Notes under the pieces: model-generated | Told to the model about the DNA's origin: nothing | Seen by the model: only the letters and a program-made list of their open reading frames with translations | The model's database searches: none | Translations under genes and position numbers: made by a program | Part shown: positions 8,416 to 17,069 of the stretch, one piece after another | Position numbering within the stretch: the first letter of the stretch is position 1 | How the letters are laid out: each line of letters opens with the position of its first letter | Assembly (NCBI RefSeq): GCF_012932915.1 | Contig: NZ_VCQU01000001.1 | Span: 744,001-808,000 of the forward strand | Reading direction: 5' to 3' | DNA: 64,000 bases | Origin: Antrihabitans stalactiti | GTDB lineage: Bacteria; Actinomycetota; Actinomycetes; Mycobacteriales; Mycobacteriaceae

Positions 8416-9459
8416 CTAGAACTCGACCGGAGCCGGGGCGATCTCGTCGGCATTGAGGACCGCGCCGATACCCAACTTCTCCTTGATCTTCTTCTCGATC
8501 TCGTCACGGATATCGGCGTTCTCCAGCAAGAACTTCCGGGCATTTTCCTTGCCCTGCCCGAGCTGATCACCCTCGTAGGTGTACCAAGAGCCGGACTTGC
8601 GGATGAAGCCGTGCTCGACGCCCATGTCGATGATCGAGCCCTCTTTGCTGATGCCGGCGCCGTAGAGGATGTCGAACTCGGCCTGCTTGAAGGGCGGAGA
8701 CACCTTGTTCTTGACGACCTTCACGCGAGTGCGGTTACCGACTGCGTCGGTGCCGTCTTTGAGGGTTTCGATCCGCCGCACGTCCAGCCGAATCGAGGCG
8801 TAGAACTTCAAAGCCTTACCACCGGTGGTGGTTTCAGGCGATCCGAACATGACGCCGATTTTCTCGCGTAGCTGGTTGATGAAAATGGCGGTGGTGTTCG
8901 AGTTGCTCAGCGCACCGGTCATCTTCCGGAGCGCCTGGCTCATCAGGCGAGCCTGCAGACCGACGTGACTGTCACCCATTTCGCCCTCGATCTCGGCGCG
9001 CGGTACGAGTGCGGCCACCGAGTCGATCACGATGATGTCGATGGCGCCCGAGCGGACCAGCATGTCGGCGATTTCCAGCGCCTGCTCACCGGTATCCGGC
9101 TGCGAGACCAGCAGAGCATCGGTATCGACACCGAGCTTCTGGGCGTAGTCCGGATCGAGCGCGTGCTCCGCGTCGATGAACGCCGCGATTCCGCCGGCTG
9201 CCTGCGCACTCGCGACCGCGTGCAACGCAACGGTCGTCTTACCCGACGACTCCGGTCCATAGATCTCGACAACTCGCCCGCGTGGCAGACCACCGATCCC
9301 CAGAGCGACGTCGAGCGCGATCGACCCAGTAGGTATTACCCCGATCGGCTGACGAACCTCGTCGCCCAGGCGCATCACCGAGCCCTTACCGAAGTTCTTG
9401 TCGATCTGCGCCAAGGCCAGTTCGAGTGCCTTGTCGCGATCGTGCGCCTTTGGTGCCAT
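8416..9459 (-). CDS. recA: Recombinase RecA
   Basis: 347 residues, full length and without the intein found in M. tuberculosis RecA. It drives homologous strand exchange and triggers LexA self-cleavage. Walker A GPESSGKT is at 68-75, Walker [11 protein letters not shown] follows, then the L1 region [12 protein letters not shown], the L2 region with GSPETTTGG, and the nucleotide-sensing [21 protein letters not shown] lies 4 nt before ATG 9459. Upstream are a PafBC-type promoter (9505-9527) and a LexA-type box (9595-9606), so induction by two DNA-damage pathways is expected. Confidence 0.97.
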
Positions 9460-10572: not shown

Positions 10573-11724
10573 TCAGGTTTTCAGGACGGCGTGACACACA
10601 GCAATCGGATCCACCACATCGGCGACGGACCGCGCGGCCGCAGCCGCAGCCTCGCGGAAACTCGATTCGCCGAGCACGCGCGCCACAGCGTCGCGCACGG
10701 CCTCAGCGGTCAGCGGCCGGACCACGACCGCACTCCCCTGCCGCGCAGCCCGATTCGCCAATTCCCATTGATCGCCGCCACCTGGGACGGCCACGACGGG
10801 GACGCCGGCGAGCAAGGCCTTCGACAGCAGGCCGTGCCCGGCACCGCACACCACGACCGAGGCGTGGGCAAGCAGTTCGTCCTGGCGACCCAGCCCAGCG
10901 GTCGCCCAAGTCGGCAGGTTGGCCGGAGGCTCCTCCAGCATCGACAACGCGACGCGAACGCCGGCGCCCGCAAGACCTTCCAGCGTCGCTTCGACCATCC
11001 CGACCGCGCCCGTGAACGCGGTCGACGGAGCCACCATGACCAACGGCTCGTCACCAGGTGGCAGGTCGAGAACCTCGTCCGTCGGCTCCCAGTGCAGCGG
11101 TCCGATGACATGAGCGTGCTCGGGCCAATCAGGGCGCGGTACCTCCAGAGCCGGCAGCGTTGCGATCAACTGCGCGGCAGGCCCTGGGTCTACCTCGGGT
11201 AAACCGATACCGATTCGGGCCTGGCTCCGCTGGCGCAGACCTTGCTTGATCGATCGCCCGGTCGCCGCGCGCATCAGCCCGTCCCGTAGTCCGCCCAGCA
11301 CGCCCTCTCCCGGGGCGAGTCCACTTCCGATGGGCGGCAACGCCTTCGACGGGGAATACAGCGGGTGCGGCGACAACTCGACCCATGGAACGTCCAGTCG
11401 CTCAGCGGCCAGCCCGCCGCCCGCGGTCAAGATGTCGGAGACGACGAGTTCTGGCAAGGTCGCGCTCAGGTCGGGCAGTAGCTCGGTCGCAATGTAGGCC
11501 GCCCGCTCGTGGATCCGTCGACCGGCATCGGAGTCGTCGTCCTCGATTCGAGGAGCCAGGCCCTTCAACTTCAGCGCGATGATTCCCTCGCGCTTCGCCG
11601 CCTCCAGCCATCTGCTGCCGGTGAAGAGCGTCGGCTGATCGCCTGCGGCGAGAAACCGCTTACACAGCGCAATGGCGGGGAACGCATGCCCCGGATCTGG
11701 TCCAGCGACAACAGCTACTCGCAT
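10573..11724 (-). CDS. GT1-family glycosyltransferase-like protein (Rv2739c-like)
   Basis: 383 residues with the GT-B architecture of macrolide/UDP-glycosyltransferases. The N-terminal acceptor domain starts with VAVVAGPDPGHAFPAI. The C-terminal nucleotide-sugar domain shows ELLAHASVVVCGAGHGLLSKALLAGVPVVAVPGGGDQ-type features: the conserved G-G-H-x-T-like site is AGHGLL, followed by PVVAVP and GDQ. The same gene sits beside DUF3046-recA in mycobacteria (Rv2739c). Donor and acceptor are unknown. A perfect hairpin (11749-11788) lies just upstream of its start. Confidence 0.8.
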   Translation of the reverse strand: MRVAVVAGPDPGHAFPAIALCKRFLAAGDQPTLFTGSRWLEAAKREGIIALKLKGLAPRIEDDDSDAGRRIHERAAYIATELLPDLSATLPELVVSDILTAGGGLAAERLDVPWVELSPHPLYSPSKALPPIGSGLAPGEGVLGGLRDGLMRAATGRSIKQGLRQRSQARIGIGLPEVDPGPAAQLIATLPALEVPRPDWPEHAHVIGPLHWEPTDEVLDLPPGDEPLVMVAPSTAFTGAVGMVEATLEGLAGAGVRVALSMLEEPPANLPTWATAGLGRQDELLAHASVVVCGAGHGLLSKALLAGVPVVAVPGGGDQWELANRAARQGSAVVVRPLTAEAVRDAVARVLGESSFREAAAAAARSVADVVDPIAVCHAVLKT

Positions 11725-11748
11725 CGCCTCAGGGTGCCACAGCCGACT

Positions 11749-11788
11749 GTGCGCGAGTCTTACCCGCCCAGGGGTAAGACTCGCGCAC
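11749..11788. terminator. GTGCGCGAGT-family intergenic hairpin, copy 1
   Basis: Perfect 17-bp stem (GTGCGCGAGTCTTACCC at 11749-11765 pairing with 11772-11788) and a 6-nt loop. It follows the stop of the 58-residue membrane protein gene (minus strand) by 8 nt, which fits a terminator for that gene. It shares its outer stem with copies at 46791 and 62453. Confidence 0.6.
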
Positions 11789-11795
11789 GGTTGCG

Positions 11796-11972
11796 TCAGG
11801 GCACACGCGTCAGGTCGCCGCGGTCGCCGCTGGAGACCGCCTTGAACAGCAGGTACAACCCGAAGATGATCGCGCTGACCACGAGAATCGGGAACAAGCC
11901 CTTCAGGAGCGCGCCGATCACCGCCAGCGCAATCCAGATCAATGCGACGATCCCAATGATTTTCCAGAACAC
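11796..11972 (-). CDS. 58-residue membrane miniprotein
   Basis: A short gene that uses a GTG start. It is supported by a strong GGAGG 8 nt upstream of GTG 11972, two hydrophobic segments (IIGIVALIWIALAVIGALL, then LFPILVVSAIIFGLYLLF) joined by a short LKG turn, and a charged tail ending DRGDLTRVP. It probably forms a two-helix membrane hairpin. No family is recognised with confidence. Because the M. tuberculosis Psp locus includes small membrane partners, a link to the nearby pspM/pspA genes is possible but weak. A hairpin follows its stop. Confidence 0.65.
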   Translation of the reverse strand: MFWKIIGIVALIWIALAVIGALLKGLFPILVVSAIIFGLYLLFKAVSSGDRGDLTRVP

Positions 11973-12017
11973 GTAACCCGCCTCCGTTTGCCTATCCGGA
12001 GCATCAGATCTTGATCT

Positions 12018-12039
12018 CCGTGCCTCAATGCTGGCACGG
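12018..12039. terminator. Short hairpin downstream of the hydrolase gene
   Basis: CCGTGCC (12018-12024) pairs perfectly with GGCACGG (12033-12039) across an 8-nt loop, 45 bp beyond the hydrolase stop on the minus strand. The 110-bp gap 11973-12083 holds nothing else recognisable. Confidence 0.4.
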
Positions 12040-12083
12040 GTGAGTATGCAAATCAGCAGGTCAGAGCCGAAATCAGGGAAAGA

Positions 12084-13025
12084 TCAGGGTTCACCCTGAG
12101 CCCGAGAGCTCGGCGTGACGTCCGCGCTCAGATGCCTGGTCAGGAACCGCACCGCGTGCTTGACGGCTGCCTCGTGGAACGGCTTGCCCGGAAAGAGGTC
12201 GAAGTGGTCGCCGGGGTAGTGCCGGACCTCGGCCCGCGCAGCGAACGCAGCCTTCGCCGCGGGGTACGGGGGCGCGCTCCGGTCGAAGTCGGCGATCTGC
12301 ACCAGCACCGGGGCCGTGATCCGCTTGGCCGCCTTGGCCGGTGCCCGACTCCCGAGCTCGAGACTGACGTCTGCGGCGATCTCGTTGCGCCAACTCGGCC
12401 CGGCGATGCTCAGGTAGTCCTCGAGAGTGCCCGCCAGGGTAAGAGCACCGACTTCACCGGGACGGGCGACGATCGGCATCATCCTCGGACCGCGGCCACT
12501 GGCTGCGGACAGCTTGCTGGTGAGGCCGAGGGCGGCGGCCCGGGCCAGCTCGCTGGGTCGGTGTGACTTCGTGGCGTGCACGGCTGCCGCCATCCCGTCG
12601 ACCATCGGCACCAATGCGACGACCGCGGCAATGTCGTTGCGATCGGCCGCGACCGTCAGGACGTGCCCGCCGGCCAGCGAGACCCCCCAGAGCACGATGC
12701 GTTGCGGATCCACGCCAGGAAGTCGTCCAGCTGCCGCGATGGCCGCCCGATAGTCGTCGGCCTGGCCAGTCAGCGAGACTCGCTGCCGCGCGCTGCCCTC
12801 ACTCTCGCCGAAGCCCCGGTAGTCGAAGACCAGCGCGTCGAGTCCGGCCGCCGCAAATGCCTCGGCGAACGGTGCCAGTCCGGAGTCCTTGGTGCCGCCG
12901 AGTCCGTGCGCCAGCACGACCGCCGGCCGACCGGCCGGGCCTGCCAGCCGATCGTCTACGGCCGGGAAATGCCAGGCCGCACAGGTGGTGCCGTCCGAGG
13001 AGAAGGTCCGGTCGTGGCGGGTCAT
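12084..13025 (-). CDS. Alpha/beta hydrolase (serine esterase/lactonase-like)
   Basis: 313 residues with the alpha/beta-hydrolase fold. Oxyanion-side motif VLAHGLGGTKDS is near residue 40, the nucleophile elbow is GVSLAGG (Ser in G-x-S-x-G), the acid is in QIADFDRSAP, and the catalytic His is in YPGDHFDLF near the C-terminus. ATG 13025 overlaps the tetR TGA by 4 bp; the longer open frame upstream is a shadow of tetR. Third gene of the FMO-TetR-hydrolase unit. Hydrolysis of the ester or lactone made by the adjacent monooxygenase is a reasonable inference. Confidence 0.85.
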   Translation of the reverse strand: MTRHDRTFSSDGTTCAAWHFPAVDDRLAGPAGRPAVVLAHGLGGTKDSGLAPFAEAFAAAGLDALVFDYRGFGESEGSARQRVSLTGQADDYRAAIAAAGRLPGVDPQRIVLWGVSLAGGHVLTVAADRNDIAAVVALVPMVDGMAAAVHATKSHRPSELARAAALGLTSKLSAASGRGPRMMPIVARPGEVGALTLAGTLEDYLSIAGPSWRNEIAADVSLELGSRAPAKAAKRITAPVLVQIADFDRSAPPYPAAKAAFAARAEVRHYPGDHFDLFPGKPFHEAAVKHAVRFLTRHLSADVTPSSRAQGEP

Positions 13026-13660
13026 TCCGGGCTCCGTGTTCCGTAGATGGTGCTCAGCCAGATAAAGGTGATGGCCTCGATGTGTTTTGCTCGTGGCGGG
13101 CCGGTGCCGAGCGAGTGCCGTTCCAGCGCATGGTCGTTGACGTCGAGCAATACCGAGGCGACCGCAGCAGCATCCGGACCCTCGACAGCACGACCCGCCG
13201 CACGTTCGGTGTCGATCATGCAGCCGATCACCGCGGCGAAGTCGGCCCGGCCGGCGTCCCACATCTGTCGTACGCCTGCGCTGGAGGCTCGTGCCTCCAG
13301 CAGCGCCCGGTAGGTGTGCGGACTGTCGTCGACGGAGTCGAAAAGCAGCGTGACAGCCTGGCTGATCCGCTGCGCGGGGTCGCCCTCGGCCTTGACCAGG
13401 ATCTCGTTCGCCTCGGCGGCCGCGTCGTACAGGCCCTGCATCAGGGCGAGCACCGCGACCGCCTTGCTCTCGAAGTAGAAGTAGAACGCTGACCGCGTCA
13501 CGCCGGCGCGGCCGGAGATATCGGCAACGTTGACCGCGTCGAGGGTCTGCTCGCGGAGCAGTTCGTCGAAGGCGCGCAGGAGTGCGTCGCGGCGGGCATC
13601 ACCGCGGTTCGGGTTGCGCCGGTCGACCAGCCGGTTCCAGGCGCCGCTCTCTTCGGTCAT
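13022..13660 (-). CDS. TetR-family regulator (EthR-like)
   Basis: 212 residues. The N-terminal helix-turn-helix covers about residues 25-70 (VNVADISGRAGVTRSAFYFYFESK, key FYFYFxSK). The C-terminal ligand domain contains AAVIGCMIDTERAAG and ends FIWLSTIYG, resembling EthR, the repressor of the ethA monooxygenase, over the same positions. ATG 13660 overlaps the FMO stop, and its own stop overlaps the hydrolase start. It probably represses both divergent units through the palindrome at 15001-15012; the ligand is unknown. Confidence 0.85.
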   Translation of the reverse strand: MTEESGAWNRLVDRRNPNRGDARRDALLRAFDELLREQTLDAVNVADISGRAGVTRSAFYFYFESKAVAVLALMQGLYDAAAEANEILVKAEGDPAQRISQAVTLLFDSVDDSPHTYRALLEARASSAGVRQMWDAGRADFAAVIGCMIDTERAAGRAVEGPDAAAVASVLLDVNDHALERHSLGTGPPRAKHIEAITFIWLSTIYGTRSPE

Positions 13661-14976
13661 CTCGCTTGCGCTCGCCGGCGACCGGCCGGAATTTCGCGGG
13701 CACGGATGTCGTGCTCGTAGATGAAATAGTCGACTTGCTGGGTGTGCCGGGGCGTGTGCAACACGTGCCCGATGTACTGCTGCTCGTCGGCCACGATCAC
13801 CCGCTCCATCTCGGCGACGTCGGGCAGCGCGTAGGCACCGACCAGATGGGCCGCCGCGAGCCGGGCCTGGCTCTCGACGAACGGGAAGAGCGTCGGCGTC
13901 GCCTGGGCGAATCCGACGAAGGTGAGGTCGTCGATGCCGGGCTTGAACATCCGCTTGTAGAGAGGCAGCCGGTTCTCCGGAGCGCTGATGAAGTCAGGAT
14001 CGAAGAACGGGAAGGTGATGTTATAGCCAGTGGCGTAAACGATTACGTCGAATTCGTCGCTGGTTCCGTCGGCAAAATGAACGGTTGCGCCGTCGAGCAG
14101 CGAGACGTTCGGCTTCGGTACCACGTCACCAGAACCGAGCCGAAGCGGCAGCTCTACCGACTGGGTCGGGTGCGCCTCGAAGAATTTGTGGTTGGGCTCG
14201 GGAAGGCCGTAGAGCGCACCGTTGCTGCCGTTCAAGACCTGTCCCCACTGCATGATCTTGCGCTGCCAGGCCAGTGGCAGGTGCGGGGTGGTGCGGTACA
14301 TCGTGTCGGCGGGCTTGCCGCCGATGTACTTGGGCACGATCCAGACACCCGACCGGGTGGACAGCGTGACTTTGGTCTGCAGCGACTTGCTGGACAGCTC
14401 CACCGCGATGTCCGCAGCGCTGTTTCCGATTCCCACCACCAGGATTCGCTGACCGAAGAAGTCCAGCGGATCCTTCGGGTCGACGTAGTGATGCGAGTGG
14501 ATCGAGACCCCGCTGAACTCACCGGGAAAGTCGGCGAAGCGCGGGTCCCAGTGGTGACCGTTCCCGACGACCAAGTGGTCGAAGTATCGGGTGGCGCCGG
14601 CCTGGTCGACGATCTCCCAGCCGCTGGTCTCGCCGTCGGGCCGGCGGGCGCTGACCACACCGTTGGTGAACTCGATGTTGTCCTTGAGGTCGAACGCCTC
14701 GGCGTAGGACTCCAAGTAGTCCTTGATCTGGGTGTGGTGCGGGAAGTCGGGGTAGTCGACCGGCATAGGAAAGTCCCGGAAAGACAGCCTCTGCTTGGAG
14801 GTGTCGATGTGCAGCGAGCGGTAGGCGCTGCTGTGACCGTTCGGGTTGCCGAACGCCCAGTTGCCGCCGATCCGATCGGAGGTCTCGAAGCAGGTGTATG
14901 GAAGCCCGTAGTCGGCGAGCATCTTGCCGGTAGTCAGGCCGCTGATGCCGGCGCCGATGATTGCCGTTGTCTTCAC
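13657..14976 (-). CDS. Flavin-containing monooxygenase (class B FMO)
   Basis: 439 residues. The FAD Rossmann motif GAGISG is at 8-13, the FMO fingerprint FSGVSIHSHHY matches FxGxxxHxxxY, the NADPH Rossmann motif is VGIGNSAAD, and YATGYNITFPFF is the FATGY-like linker. It would oxygenate a soft nucleophile or a ketone with NADPH and O2. GTG 14976 is chosen because TACCGT lies exactly 7 nt upstream, there is no ribosome-binding site, and KTTAIIGAG begins the fold immediately. The longer frame from 15006 would run through the operator. Coupled to tetR by ATGA. Confidence 0.85.
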   Translation of the reverse strand: MKTTAIIGAGISGLTTGKMLADYGLPYTCFETSDRIGGNWAFGNPNGHSSAYRSLHIDTSKQRLSFRDFPMPVDYPDFPHHTQIKDYLESYAEAFDLKDNIEFTNGVVSARRPDGETSGWEIVDQAGATRYFDHLVVGNGHHWDPRFADFPGEFSGVSIHSHHYVDPKDPLDFFGQRILVVGIGNSAADIAVELSSKSLQTKVTLSTRSGVWIVPKYIGGKPADTMYRTTPHLPLAWQRKIMQWGQVLNGSNGALYGLPEPNHKFFEAHPTQSVELPLRLGSGDVVPKPNVSLLDGATVHFADGTSDEFDVIVYATGYNITFPFFDPDFISAPENRLPLYKRMFKPGIDDLTFVGFAQATPTLFPFVESQARLAAAHLVGAYALPDVAEMERVIVADEQQYIGHVLHTPRHTQQVDYFIYEHDIRAREIPAGRRRAQAR

Positions 14977-14983
14977 ATCCGCA

Positions 14984-14989
14984 ACGGTA
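14984..14989 (-). promoter_or_regulatory. -10 element of the leaderless FMO gene
   Basis: TACCGT on the minus strand, 7 nt before GTG 14976. Its -35 region would fall on the palindrome at 15001-15012. Confidence 0.5.
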
Positions 14990-14994
14990 GGCGC

Positions 14995-15000
14995 TACTTT
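14995..15000 (+). promoter_or_regulatory. -10 element of the leaderless SDR gene
   Basis: TACTTT, then 6 nt, then GTG 15007. The two divergent promoters overlap face to face within about 30 bp. Confidence 0.45.
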
Positions 15001-15012
15001 TGACACGTGTCA
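15001..15012. promoter_or_regulatory. Perfect 12-bp palindrome, probable TetR operator
   Basis: TGACACGTGTCA spans the SDR start codon and the -35 zone of the FMO promoter. One bound repressor would block both promoters; the TetR gene between FMO and hydrolase is the obvious candidate. Confidence 0.65.
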
Positions 15013-15828
15013 ACCATTATAGACAGACGTCAGACGCGCAAGGTGTACGCCGGCAAAGTAGCGATCGTGACCGGCGGAGCGTCAGGGATCGGGGCATCGC
15101 TCGTCCGCGCCCTGCGCAGCGAAGGGGCCACAGTGATCTCCGCGGACCTGCAGCCCGGTGGCGATGACGTGGCGCTGGACGTGACCCATGCGGCGGCGGT
15201 GCAAGCGTTGGTGGACAGGGTCGTCGACGAGCACGGAAGGCTCGACTTGATGTTCAACAACGCCGGGATCAGCCTGATCGGCGAGACCCAGGATCTGTCG
15301 CTCGCGCAGTGGAACTCGATCATCGACGTGAAAATCCGCGGCGTCGTGCACGGTGTCGCTGCGGCGTACCCGCAGTTCATCCGGCAGGGCAATGGGCACA
15401 TCGTGAACACGGCATCGATGGGCGGACTGATGGCGGCCGGGCTGCTGACGTCGTACGTGATGACCAAGCACGCCGTTGTCGGACTTTCCCTGGCGTTACG
15501 CTCCGAGGCCGCGGCGTACGGCGTCGGTGTGACCGCGATCTGCCCGGCTGCGGTGAACACTCCGATCCTGGACAAGGGTGAGTTCGGCACGGTTCGCGGG
15601 CGCGACTACTTCCTGAAGGGCCAAGGCATCCGCAAGCCGGTGGACCCGGACCTCCTCGCCCAGCGGGTGCTGGCGGCCGTGGCTGCTGGTCAGGCGCTGG
15701 TCGTCGAGCCCGTGCAGGCAAGAATGGCGTGGCGCTTGCAGCGGTTCCTGCCGGCAGTCACGCAAAAGGCCTCCATCAGGTTCATCGCCAAGCAGCGCAA
15801 GCTCGCTGCCGAGAAGGGAGCACGATGA
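15007..15828 (+). CDS. Short-chain dehydrogenase/reductase
   Basis: 273 residues, classical SDR. The cofactor motif GGASGIG (TGxxxGxG) is near residue 20, the NNAG motif is in MFNNAGIS, the catalytic Ser is in VNTASMGG, and Tyr and Lys are in SYVMTKHA (YxxxK). Asp in ISADLQ after beta-2 favours NAD(H). It interconverts an alcohol and a ketone; oxidation feeding the divergent FMO is inferred. GTG 15007 is supported by TACTTT 6 nt upstream; GTG 15043 is an alternative. First gene of a unit with the F420-type reductase, joined by ATGA. Confidence 0.88.
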   Translation: MSTIIDRRQTRKVYAGKVAIVTGGASGIGASLVRALRSEGATVISADLQPGGDDVALDVTHAAAVQALVDRVVDEHGRLDLMFNNAGISLIGETQDLSLAQWNSIIDVKIRGVVHGVAAAYPQFIRQGNGHIVNTASMGGLMAAGLLTSYVMTKHAVVGLSLALRSEAAAYGVGVTAICPAAVNTPILDKGEFGTVRGRDYFLKGQGIRKPVDPDLLAQRVLAAVAAGQALVVEPVQARMAWRLQRFLPAVTQKASIRFIAKQRKLAAEKGAR

Positions 15829-16313
15829 GTGCCACCAAGCCCAACGGACTCGATTCACCGCTGATCCCGAAGGTGATGAAGTACGCCGGCAAGGCGCACG
15901 TCCGGGTCTACCGAATGACTGGCGGCCGGGTCGGCGGCAAGTGGCGGATCGGCGCCGGCTGGAAGAAGCCGGTCCAGACGCTGCTGCTCGACCATGTCGG
16001 CCGCAAGAGCGGCCGTAAGTTCACCACACCGCTGCTGTACCTGCGCGACGGACCGGACGTGGTGATCGTGGCCTCGCAGGGCGGGCTGCCGAAGAACCCG
16101 CAGTGGTACGCCAACCGGATGGCGACGCCGGACACATCGGTCCAGATCAAGTCCGAGAGGCGAGCGGTGACGGCCCGCACCGCGAACGCCGAAGAGCGCG
16201 CCGACCTCTGGCCCAAGCTGGTCGATCTCTACGCCGACTTCGCCAGCTACCAGTCCTGGACCGACCGGGAGATCCCGGTGGTGATCCTCGGACCAAGATC
16301 AAGCGGCGGGTGA
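15825..16313 (+). CDS. Deazaflavin (F420)-dependent nitroreductase-family protein
   Basis: 162 residues of the Ddn/DDN family. Conserved features are the segment LLLDHVGRKSGRKFTTPLLYLRDG (GRKSG binds the cofactor phosphate), VVIVASQGG and PQWYANRMATPDTSVQI. Family members reduce quinones, enones or nitro compounds with F420H2, usually at the membrane. ATG 15825 overlaps the SDR stop. The 3' end overlaps the convergent pspM gene by 15 bp, so the last codons (RSSGG) are read on both strands. This marks the right border of the accessory block. Confidence 0.85.
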   Translation: MSATKPNGLDSPLIPKVMKYAGKAHVRVYRMTGGRVGGKWRIGAGWKKPVQTLLLDHVGRKSGRKFTTPLLYLRDGPDVVIVASQGGLPKNPQWYANRMATPDTSVQIKSERRAVTARTANAEERADLWPKLVDLYADFASYQSWTDREIPVVILGPRSSGG

Positions 16314-17069
16314 CGTCGGTCCAGGACCGATCGCCCGGGGCGCTCCAGCGAGTTCTGCGAGGGCCTCGGCCCAGCCGTCGAGACGGTCCGCCGCTACCCG
16401 CAGCTCGAGATTGGCTCGCTCCGAAGGTGTGGGCAATGCGCCCTGGGGCACGGTCATTCGTGCGGCCGCCTGCAGAAGGTGCTCATATTCACGCAGGCCG
16501 GAGTCGAGTTCTGCCCGCGCTGCCATGACCGACTGCTGCAGTTCGAATGCCGCTTGGCCCGCCAGCTTCGCGGCTTGCTCCAACGAGACGATGTCGATCG
16601 ACAGCGCGTGCAAGGCCTCGGCGGCTGATTCGGCGGCCGCGGCGGTTTCGGCCAGCTCGTCGGCAGGAACCGGCGCCGACCGAGCCACGACCGCAAGGAC
16701 GTGCGACAGGCTCTTCTCCACCTTCGCCAGCCGGACCATCGGACCGCGCGCAGCCGAACCGACCGGGGGCAGCGCACGGACCTGCGCGCCGACTGGCGGA
16801 AGCGGTTTTGCCTTCAGGCGCAAGTATTTTCGCGTCGCGAGCGCAGCGGGGACCACGAGTGCGACGGCACCACTACTGGTGATGACGACCGCCCACACCG
16901 GCGCAGCGACGATCGCCAAGCCTGCGGCGCCGACGGCCGTTGCGCCCGACGCCGCGCTGTACCGAATGCTGCGGCGGCGGGCGCGCCGACGTTTCCGAAT
17001 CTCCCGCTCGCGCGGGTGCGCCCACCGACGTACAGCGACCAACGCCGACTCGCCGAGTCCCCGCAGCAT
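16299..17069 (-). CDS. PspM-like membrane protein (Rv2743c-like)
   Basis: 256 residues. A very basic N-terminus (REREIRKRRRARRR) is followed by two hydrophobic segments (about 38-80: ATAVGAAGLAIVAAPVWAVVI and the adjacent VALVVPAALA), then a long Ala-rich cytoplasmic helical region likely to form coiled coil. Position directly after pspA and overall build match Rv2743c (PspM), the membrane partner of PspA in mycobacteria. It starts 25 bp after the pspA stop (same operon) and overlaps the convergent F420-type reductase gene by 15 bp at its 3' end. Confidence 0.75.
   Translation of the reverse strand: MLRGLGESALVAVRRWAHPREREIRKRRRARRRSIRYSAASGATAVGAAGLAIVAAPVWAVVITSSGAVALVVPAALATRKYLRLKAKPLPPVGAQVRALPPVGSAARGPMVRLAKVEKSLSHVLAVVARSAPVPADELAETAAAAESAAEALHALSIDIVSLEQAAKLAGQAAFELQQSVMAARAELDSGLREYEHLLQAAARMTVPQGALPTPSERANLELRVAADRLDGWAEALAELAGAPRAIGPGPTSPAA

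Follow-up and report, generated by a model that had tools for sequence, protein, structure and literature searches.

Organization of the locus

The locus lies in a window of 64,000 nucleotides (nt) from Antrihabitans stalactiti (contig NZ_VCQU01000001.1, positions 744,001 to 808,000), where the window denotes this whole stretch and all coordinates are its own. Two divergent gene units were found. The minus-strand unit encodes, in order, a probable class-B flavin-containing monooxygenase (FMO), an EthR-family TetR repressor and an alpha/beta hydrolase, while the plus-strand unit encodes a short-chain dehydrogenase/reductase (SDR) followed by a Ddn-like protein. A predicted operator is located between them. 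The features are listed below.

11746..11791, minus strand: strong hairpin between the hydrolase gene and a UGT-like gene, possible operon end
12084..13025, minus strand: alpha/beta hydrolase, 313 aa, last in the minus unit (Abhydrolase_1, 1.8e-13)
13022..13660, minus strand: EthR-family TetR repressor, 212 aa (EthR_C, 4.9e-21; TetR_N, 2.2e-08)
13657..14976, minus strand: probable class-B FMO, 439 aa, proposed start GTG 14976 (FMO-like, 2.8e-79)
14979..15013, minus strand: proposed FMO promoter (TTGACA within the operator, 18 bp, TACCGT, 7 nt, GTG 14976)
15000..15013, no strand: main operator TTGACACGTGTCAA, predicted (perfect palindrome, locus comparison)
15020..15033, no strand: second, weaker site with two mismatches, 20 bp from the main operator (offset kept in relatives)
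15007..15828, plus strand: SDR, start GTG 15007 or GTG 15043 (adh_short, 5.5e-42)
15825..16313, plus strand: Ddn-like F420-dependent reductase family protein, 162 aa (F420H2_quin_red, 1.5e-37)

The first-pass annotation had described two coupled, divergent units with 4-bp ATGA joins and had assigned the five protein families. The outer bounds (12084-16313) were verified by reading of the open reading frames (ORFs) and the sequence, all three overlaps were verified, and the families were supported by Pfam and NCBIfam matches. On the minus strand, ATGA is common to the FMO stop (13657-13659) and the TetR start (ATG 13660), and likewise to the TetR stop (13022-13024) and the hydrolase start (ATG 13025). 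On the plus strand, it is common to the SDR stop (15826-15828) and the Ddn-like start (ATG 15825). Since such overlaps are frequent in bacterial operons, they were taken as evidence of operon structure only. For the FMO, GTG 14976 is the likeliest start, as the one given by the ORF tool (GTG 15006) falls within the palindrome. The hydrolase has 313 aa when counted from ATG 13025 and was listed among the ORFs with 392 aa. The 3' end of the Ddn-like gene (16313) overlaps the convergent pspM (16299-17069) by 15 bp. The hairpin has 20-nt arms that are 95% complementary (−39.9 kcal/mol, z −5.0); it has no T-run, and the terminator scan listed no site there.

The operator and the embedded TetR

The TetR protein matched EthR_C at 75.6 bits (cut-off 27) and TetR_N at 34.2 bits (cut-off 24), and its best solved relative was EthR (3.9e-19). 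The EthR_C match bears out the earlier description of the embedded regulator as EthR-like. Orthology with EthR itself was rejected because the gene order differs, the TetR gene sitting within the FMO operon rather than divergent from an EthA-type monooxygenase, and because relatives carry separate EthR/EthA-like pairs. In five Mycolicibacterium genomes, such separate, weaker EthR-like genes adjoin a 23-27% relative of the FMO (loci L136-L140). No second EthR-family match was found in the host's own genome at 1e-8 (150 of 167 candidates scored).

The sequence TTGACACGTGTCAA forms a perfect palindrome at 15000-15013 and is the single site within one mismatch in the whole 6.76-Mb genome, where TTGACNNNNGTCAA with its free centre was not searched. 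A search for a larger regulon in this genome with the looser CTGACNNNNGTCAR returned background, with 12 forward and 17 reverse matches compared to 13 and 11 for the reversed control.

The site was then compared across 82 loci, comprising 80 genome loci and two from plasmids, L088 and L089 (a further one, L090, was excluded), and was counted as TTGACNNNNGTCAA with at most one mismatch within 300 bp upstream of the FMO. An EthR-like TetR sits between the FMO and the hydrolase in 30 of these loci, and all 30 have the site before the FMO (27 exact), compared to 4 of the 52 loci that lack the embedded TetR (all 4 exact). Neither the 2646 other 303-bp windows taken from these loci nor 4100 shuffled windows contained an exact TTGACNNNNGTCAA. 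The same pattern was observed in a second set of 29 loci of the host's family, which may share species with the first: the site was present in both loci with an EthR-like TetR and in none of the 23 with another TetR or the 4 with neither. When selection was instead by TetR, 10 of 24 genomes around the genus of L008 had the regulator at 1e-35; the FMO lay directly upstream in nine of these ten loci, with an exact site in eight and a one-mismatch site in L162. Four of the ten genomes (G308, G310, G312 and G313) also contribute loci to the first set. L163 has an EthR-like TetR with FMO pieces only upstream and no exact site, and is possibly a decayed copy.

By this comparison of sequences, the operator is paired with the embedded EthR-family TetR and is its candidate binding site. 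Thirty-five loci bear the site, namely the 30 with the embedded TetR, the four exceptions and the window. In 17 of them, a second, weaker site (at most three mismatches) lies exactly 20 bp towards the divergent gene (7 loci at the next-commonest offset), which may accommodate a second TetR dimer.

A proposed promoter within the operator

In all 35 site-bearing loci, a TANNNT hexamer is found 16-19 bp after the left half-site, compared to a rate of 1.6% among 10,150 upstream positions of these loci. As this spacing is kept throughout, it was deduced that the operator contains the −35 element of the FMO promoter. The layout in the window reads TTGACA, 18 bp, TACCGT, 7 nt and GTG 14976, and L008, L009 and L012 read alike; such a layout predicts that the FMO mRNA would be leaderless. 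On the SDR side, the candidate is TTCACA-17-TACTTT-6-GTG 15007, with like strings in the same three loci. That stretch also encodes the FMO start, and 18 of the 35 loci have no such hexamer. A second leaderless promoter is thus only suggested.

Displaced regulators and regulator exchange

The four site-bearing loci without an embedded TetR (L067, L070, L078 and L086) are from Mycolicibacterium or Mycobacterium. Their genomes encode elsewhere a TetR 42-43% identical to that of the window (2.2e-49 to 1.7e-48), which matches it as well as do the in-place TetRs of L075 and L080 (45-46%). No such TetR was found at 1e-15 in a single control genome without the site (L060). Each displaced TetR is preceded by its own TTGAC(N4)GTCAG site and then TAGTGT at 17 bp, whereas six weaker EthR-like genes (L135-L140) have no TTGAC(N4)GTCAG site within about 1.5 kb. 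Directly after one displaced Mycolicibacterium TetR (L153:4003-5741) is an APH/EcKL-type kinase gene, of a family also found near the FMO elsewhere.

In 42 of the 52 loci that lack the EthR-like TetR (e.g., L017, L028 and L034), a different TetR is divergent from the FMO, and a representative of it matches TetR_N only. Between this gene and the FMO, 40 of the 42 loci carry a 26-bp site, GTAGACA-N12-TGTCTAC (with its variants, GTAGACA-N12-TGT(C/G/T)(T/C)A(C/T)), which was found in none of the 30 EthR-like loci and in 1 of 2645 other windows. Two distinct TetR-operator pairs therefore appear to control the same FMO-hydrolase pair, a clear-cut instance of regulator replacement.

The L008 and L038 genomes each contain one further exact copy of the palindrome, which precedes an amidohydrolase gene that is the same in both (Amidohydro_3; L149:4830-6652 and L150:4148-5970). 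These two Nocardioidaceae copies are 81% mutually identical, and the gene is likely a second target in these relatives. The layout there is TTCGAT at 17 bp with ATG 6 nt after, so the TANNNT rule does not hold for either. Four other Nocardioides-type genomes had no second exact palindrome. The host has an amidohydrolase 71% identical, yet its genome has no second site within one mismatch. Two Mycolicibacterium genomes carry the exact palindrome before a GXWXG/DUF4334 gene (L151:4660 and L152:4643), with no TANNNT at 15-19 bp from these sites. The latter gene adjoins an alanine-dehydrogenase-like gene, named by reading.

Gene association across loci

The FMO and the hydrolase are adjacent in 78 of the 82 loci, more often than chance would give, and some of the loci end at contig ends. 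An SDR of at least 55% identity was found in 14 loci and the Ddn-like gene in four, and 43 loci have some SDR no more than 700 bp from the pair. The first-pass annotation had proposed that all five proteins act in series, and named rare co-occurrence as grounds for abandoning the idea. By that test the Ddn-like gene and the SDR were concluded to be optional parts, since the full set occurs together in only four loci (L008, L013, L038 and L056). The proposal is partly supported: a pathway is plausible for the FMO and hydrolase and weak for the Ddn-like step. An AMP-ligase relative is present in the examined DNA of 24 of the 82 loci. Neighbour families, judged from one representative each, include P450, acyl-CoA dehydrogenase, MaoC, APH-like and luciferase-like proteins, and a Pseudonocardia plasmid locus has CoA-transferase, AMP-binding and MaoC genes nearby. 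As judged from these families, the setting is catabolic. The FMO itself is widespread, with a relative at 1e-120 or better in 146 of 301 sampled genomes of the host's family.

Hydrolase, SDR and Ddn-like protein

The hydrolase was assigned to the esterase-type alpha/beta hydrolases by its domain (Abhydrolase_1, 51.1 bits compared to a cut-off of 25.8) and its predicted Ser-Asp-His residues. Ser116, Asp246, Asp248 and His274 were invariant in 10 of 10 aligned sequences, with Asp246 or Asp248 as the predicted catalytic aspartate. The predicted structure (pLDDT 80.9) resembles esterases, lipases and thioesterases. Identity as the UilS lactonase was rejected (115 bits against a cut-off of 400), as was assignment of the SDR to the mycofactocin-coupled SDRs (TIGR03971, 133.2 bits against 300).

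The Ddn-like protein scored 111.5 bits with TIGR00026 (cut-off 46.35), placing it by sequence in the Ddn/F420H2-dependent reductase family, and the host genome has two CofH matches of the F420 pathway over the cut-off. The earlier suggestion that this protein reduces an unsaturated intermediate thus keeps the support of the family and the host's F420 genes and nothing beyond these, in a gene present in 4 of 82 loci. The CofH matches are on contigs C25 (L121) and C24 (L122) and represent separate F420-pathway genes; the frames are 869 and 911 codons, with weaker second matches inside, as if fused.

Genomic surroundings and origin

The block is flanked by a recA-like gene (8416-9459, named from its translation) and a UGT-like glycosyltransferase gene (10573-11724) on one side, and by pspM (16299-17069) and pspA on the other. 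In the genus relative G002, the glycosyltransferase gene and pspM are about 335 bp apart with nearly nothing between. By reading of translations, the corresponding interval holds MarR-, DinB- and PIG-L-like genes in G003 and PIG-L- and MMPL-like genes in G001. The spot (window 11724-16302; L145, L146 and L147) thus has different content in each of four genus genomes, and the five-gene block was deduced to be an accessory insertion here.

At 1e-120, the FMO was absent from all three genus relatives, G001 having a 37% relative. The nearest FMOs (81-89%; the first seven of the 80 loci) were from Nocardioides and one Propionibacteriales bin, which belong to another order, while the best within the host's family was 77% (301 genomes). 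In a quick FMO tree of 111 rows, the window pairs with Nocardioides marmorisolisilvae (support 97) and forms one set with six Propionibacteriales (support 100). In a TetR tree of 32 rows, it groups with three Propionibacteriales (support 96). The rows were picked by similarity, and the placement of the window was the same in an earlier tree that included the distant, very long outgroup row L089. Horizontal acquisition of the module is considered probable because both proteins group with Nocardioides and no close FMO occurs in the three genus relatives. A simple transfer story is opposed by the host-family member L114 (G043), which stands one step out in the TetR set (8 rows, support 96), and by the orders, which are not clean clades (5 changes compared to a minimum of 2). 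The simplest reading is a transfer between a Nocardioides-like lineage and the host, presumably in that direction.

Proposed mechanism and alternatives

Beyond the first-pass annotation, the present analysis adds a predicted operator, a promoter within it, a likely foreign origin and the exchange of regulators in relatives; the enzymes are of ordinary kinds. It is moderately probable, in our view, that the block is a horizontally acquired, inducible catabolic (or detoxifying) module under its own EthR-family TetR. The best supported part of this interpretation is the control circuit read from the sequences, namely the EthR-family repressor, the operator and the promoter inside it. The course of repression, induction and catalysis that we infer, including reaction order and substrate, is as follows. 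The repressor, itself a product of the operon it controls, would bind TTGACACGTGTCAA. Since this site holds the FMO −35 element and touches the SDR start region, binding of a single repressor could shut down both units. The repressor would leave the operator in response to an inducer, for which the substrate or an intermediate is the likeliest candidate. The FMO would then oxygenate the substrate, most likely converting a ketone to an ester or lactone that the hydrolase would split, and a CoA ligase, present in many relatives, would take the resulting acid. The SDR would interconvert alcohol and ketone, and the Ddn-like protein would be an optional F420-dependent reductase.

Several observations weigh against this interpretation. 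Besides the rarity of the full gene set, a CoA ligase is absent from the window, the SDR-side promoter candidate is weak, and a generic sigma-70 scan returned no promoter for 11600-16500. The counts are not independent, since the loci share descent and similarity of their FMOs was the basis of selection. The remaining points concern the FMO. Class B was defined by FxGxxxHxxx(Y/F)(K/R) together with the FMO-like domain, whose match is over threshold in the window FMO. FxGxxxHxxxY is present there and in 82 of 82 loci, and the final K/R is absent there and present in 1 of 82, leaving the fingerprint partial. Neither Baeyer-Villiger monooxygenase (BVMO) fingerprint, FxGxxxHxxxW(P/D) or GGxWxxxx(F/Y)P(G/M)xxxD (as defined in the accessible part of PMC10682829), was found in the window FMO or in any of the 82 loci.

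Assignment of the FMO as a BVMO by sequence was therefore rejected, and with the motifs absent throughout, a Baeyer-Villiger step is plausible at most. The earlier claim that the FMO inserts oxygen into a ketone stands as a possibility of which the sequence gives no indication; the argument for it comes from gene context and from documented exceptions, as the available text of PMC10682829 describes Baeyer-Villiger oxidation for some FMOs.

The most serious alternative, although it appears rather unlikely, is that the FMO acts on a xenobiotic or plant compound by oxygenating its nitrogen or sulfur, and that an ester or amide of this compound is the substrate of the hydrolase; the module would then serve detoxification or alkaloid catabolism, governed by the same switch. 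The fingerprint, being of the FMO rather than the BVMO type, agrees with this, as does the predominance of heteroatom oxygenation among FMO reactions stated in the same part of PMC10682829. The solved relatives, found by sequence and from the predicted structure, include an alkaloid N-oxygenase, an S-oxygenase and trimethylamine monooxygenases; because the model is of low confidence (mean pLDDT 62), its PDB matches are usable as names only. Breakdown of a carbon skeleton, as in the preferred catabolic interpretation, is a better fit to the near-constant hydrolase, the CoA-ligase relatives and the acyl-CoA-type neighbours.

Slightly less likely again is operon shuffling without a common pathway, in which only the FMO and hydrolase belong together and the SDR and Ddn-like protein serve other ends. 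The low counts of the latter two genes are what such shuffling would produce. Where both are present, however, this operator region lies between them and the divergent FMO (L008, L013, L038 and L056), and the window retains them even though the block is accessory in the genus. It is very improbable that the palindrome is a mere promoter element or another regulator's site, with the embedded TetR acting elsewhere: the left half doubles as the −35 hexamer and could by itself conserve TTGAC, but this leaves the conserved right half unexplained, and the site is missing from 42 loci where another TetR, with another site, adjoins the same FMO and present before the four displaced TetR genes.

The inducible-module interpretation thus offers, for a widespread FMO-hydrolase pair, a switch of repressor, operator and promoter that is testable at the level of single bases. 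A reporter on the FMO promoter would convert the question of the substrate into an induction screen, and the ligand so identified could shed light on what EthR-family repressors sense.

Comparison with known systems

Literature searches listed no description of the FMO-hydrolase pair and, in the collection searched, no paper with the string TTGACACGTGTCAA and none combining FMO, TetR, hydrolase, Baeyer-Villiger, operator and Actinobacteria. In the mymA operon of M. tuberculosis, members of the FMO, hydrolase and SDR families are likewise clustered, with a gene order and a regulator that differ from those of the window block. The sad cluster is reportedly grouped with the ketone-BVMO-esterase pathways. 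Other examples of these, according to the accessible portions of the respective papers, are the 2-ketone pathway of Acinetobacter (PMC12753306) and the acetone monooxygenase system of Gordonia TY-5 (PMC6215540). Their logic of an oxygenase, an ester hydrolase and an alcohol dehydrogenase (same portion of PMC12753306) is common to the window block, but they use BVMOs where the window has a probable class-B FMO without BVMO fingerprints. Ddn, the deazaflavin-dependent nitroreductase, is of the same family as the Ddn-like protein (TIGR00026), and the YQSWTDR block is common to both. Unlike Ddn, the window gene shares an operon with an SDR.

The mycobacterial ethionamide-activation locus, EthA-EthR, likewise has an EthR-family repressor beside a flavin monooxygenase. 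EthA is a BVMO, and the EthR gene is divergent from ethA. The window FMO, in contrast, has no BVMO fingerprint, and the window TetR gene lies inside the FMO operon, divergent EthA/EthR-like pairs being those seen in L136-L140. The operator differs as well, as it is a classical palindrome, whereas the EthR motif is described in the available part of PMC4482099 as larger and more complex, with no classical palindrome. The same part calls the physiological role of EthR unknown. It is a speculative and rather doubtful extension that EthR-type repressors ancestrally guard oxygenase-hydrolase operons for ketones or esters, with the present module as a living model and two TetRs having converged on one pathway. 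If this were true, the inducer of the module would indicate the class of natural ligands for EthR.

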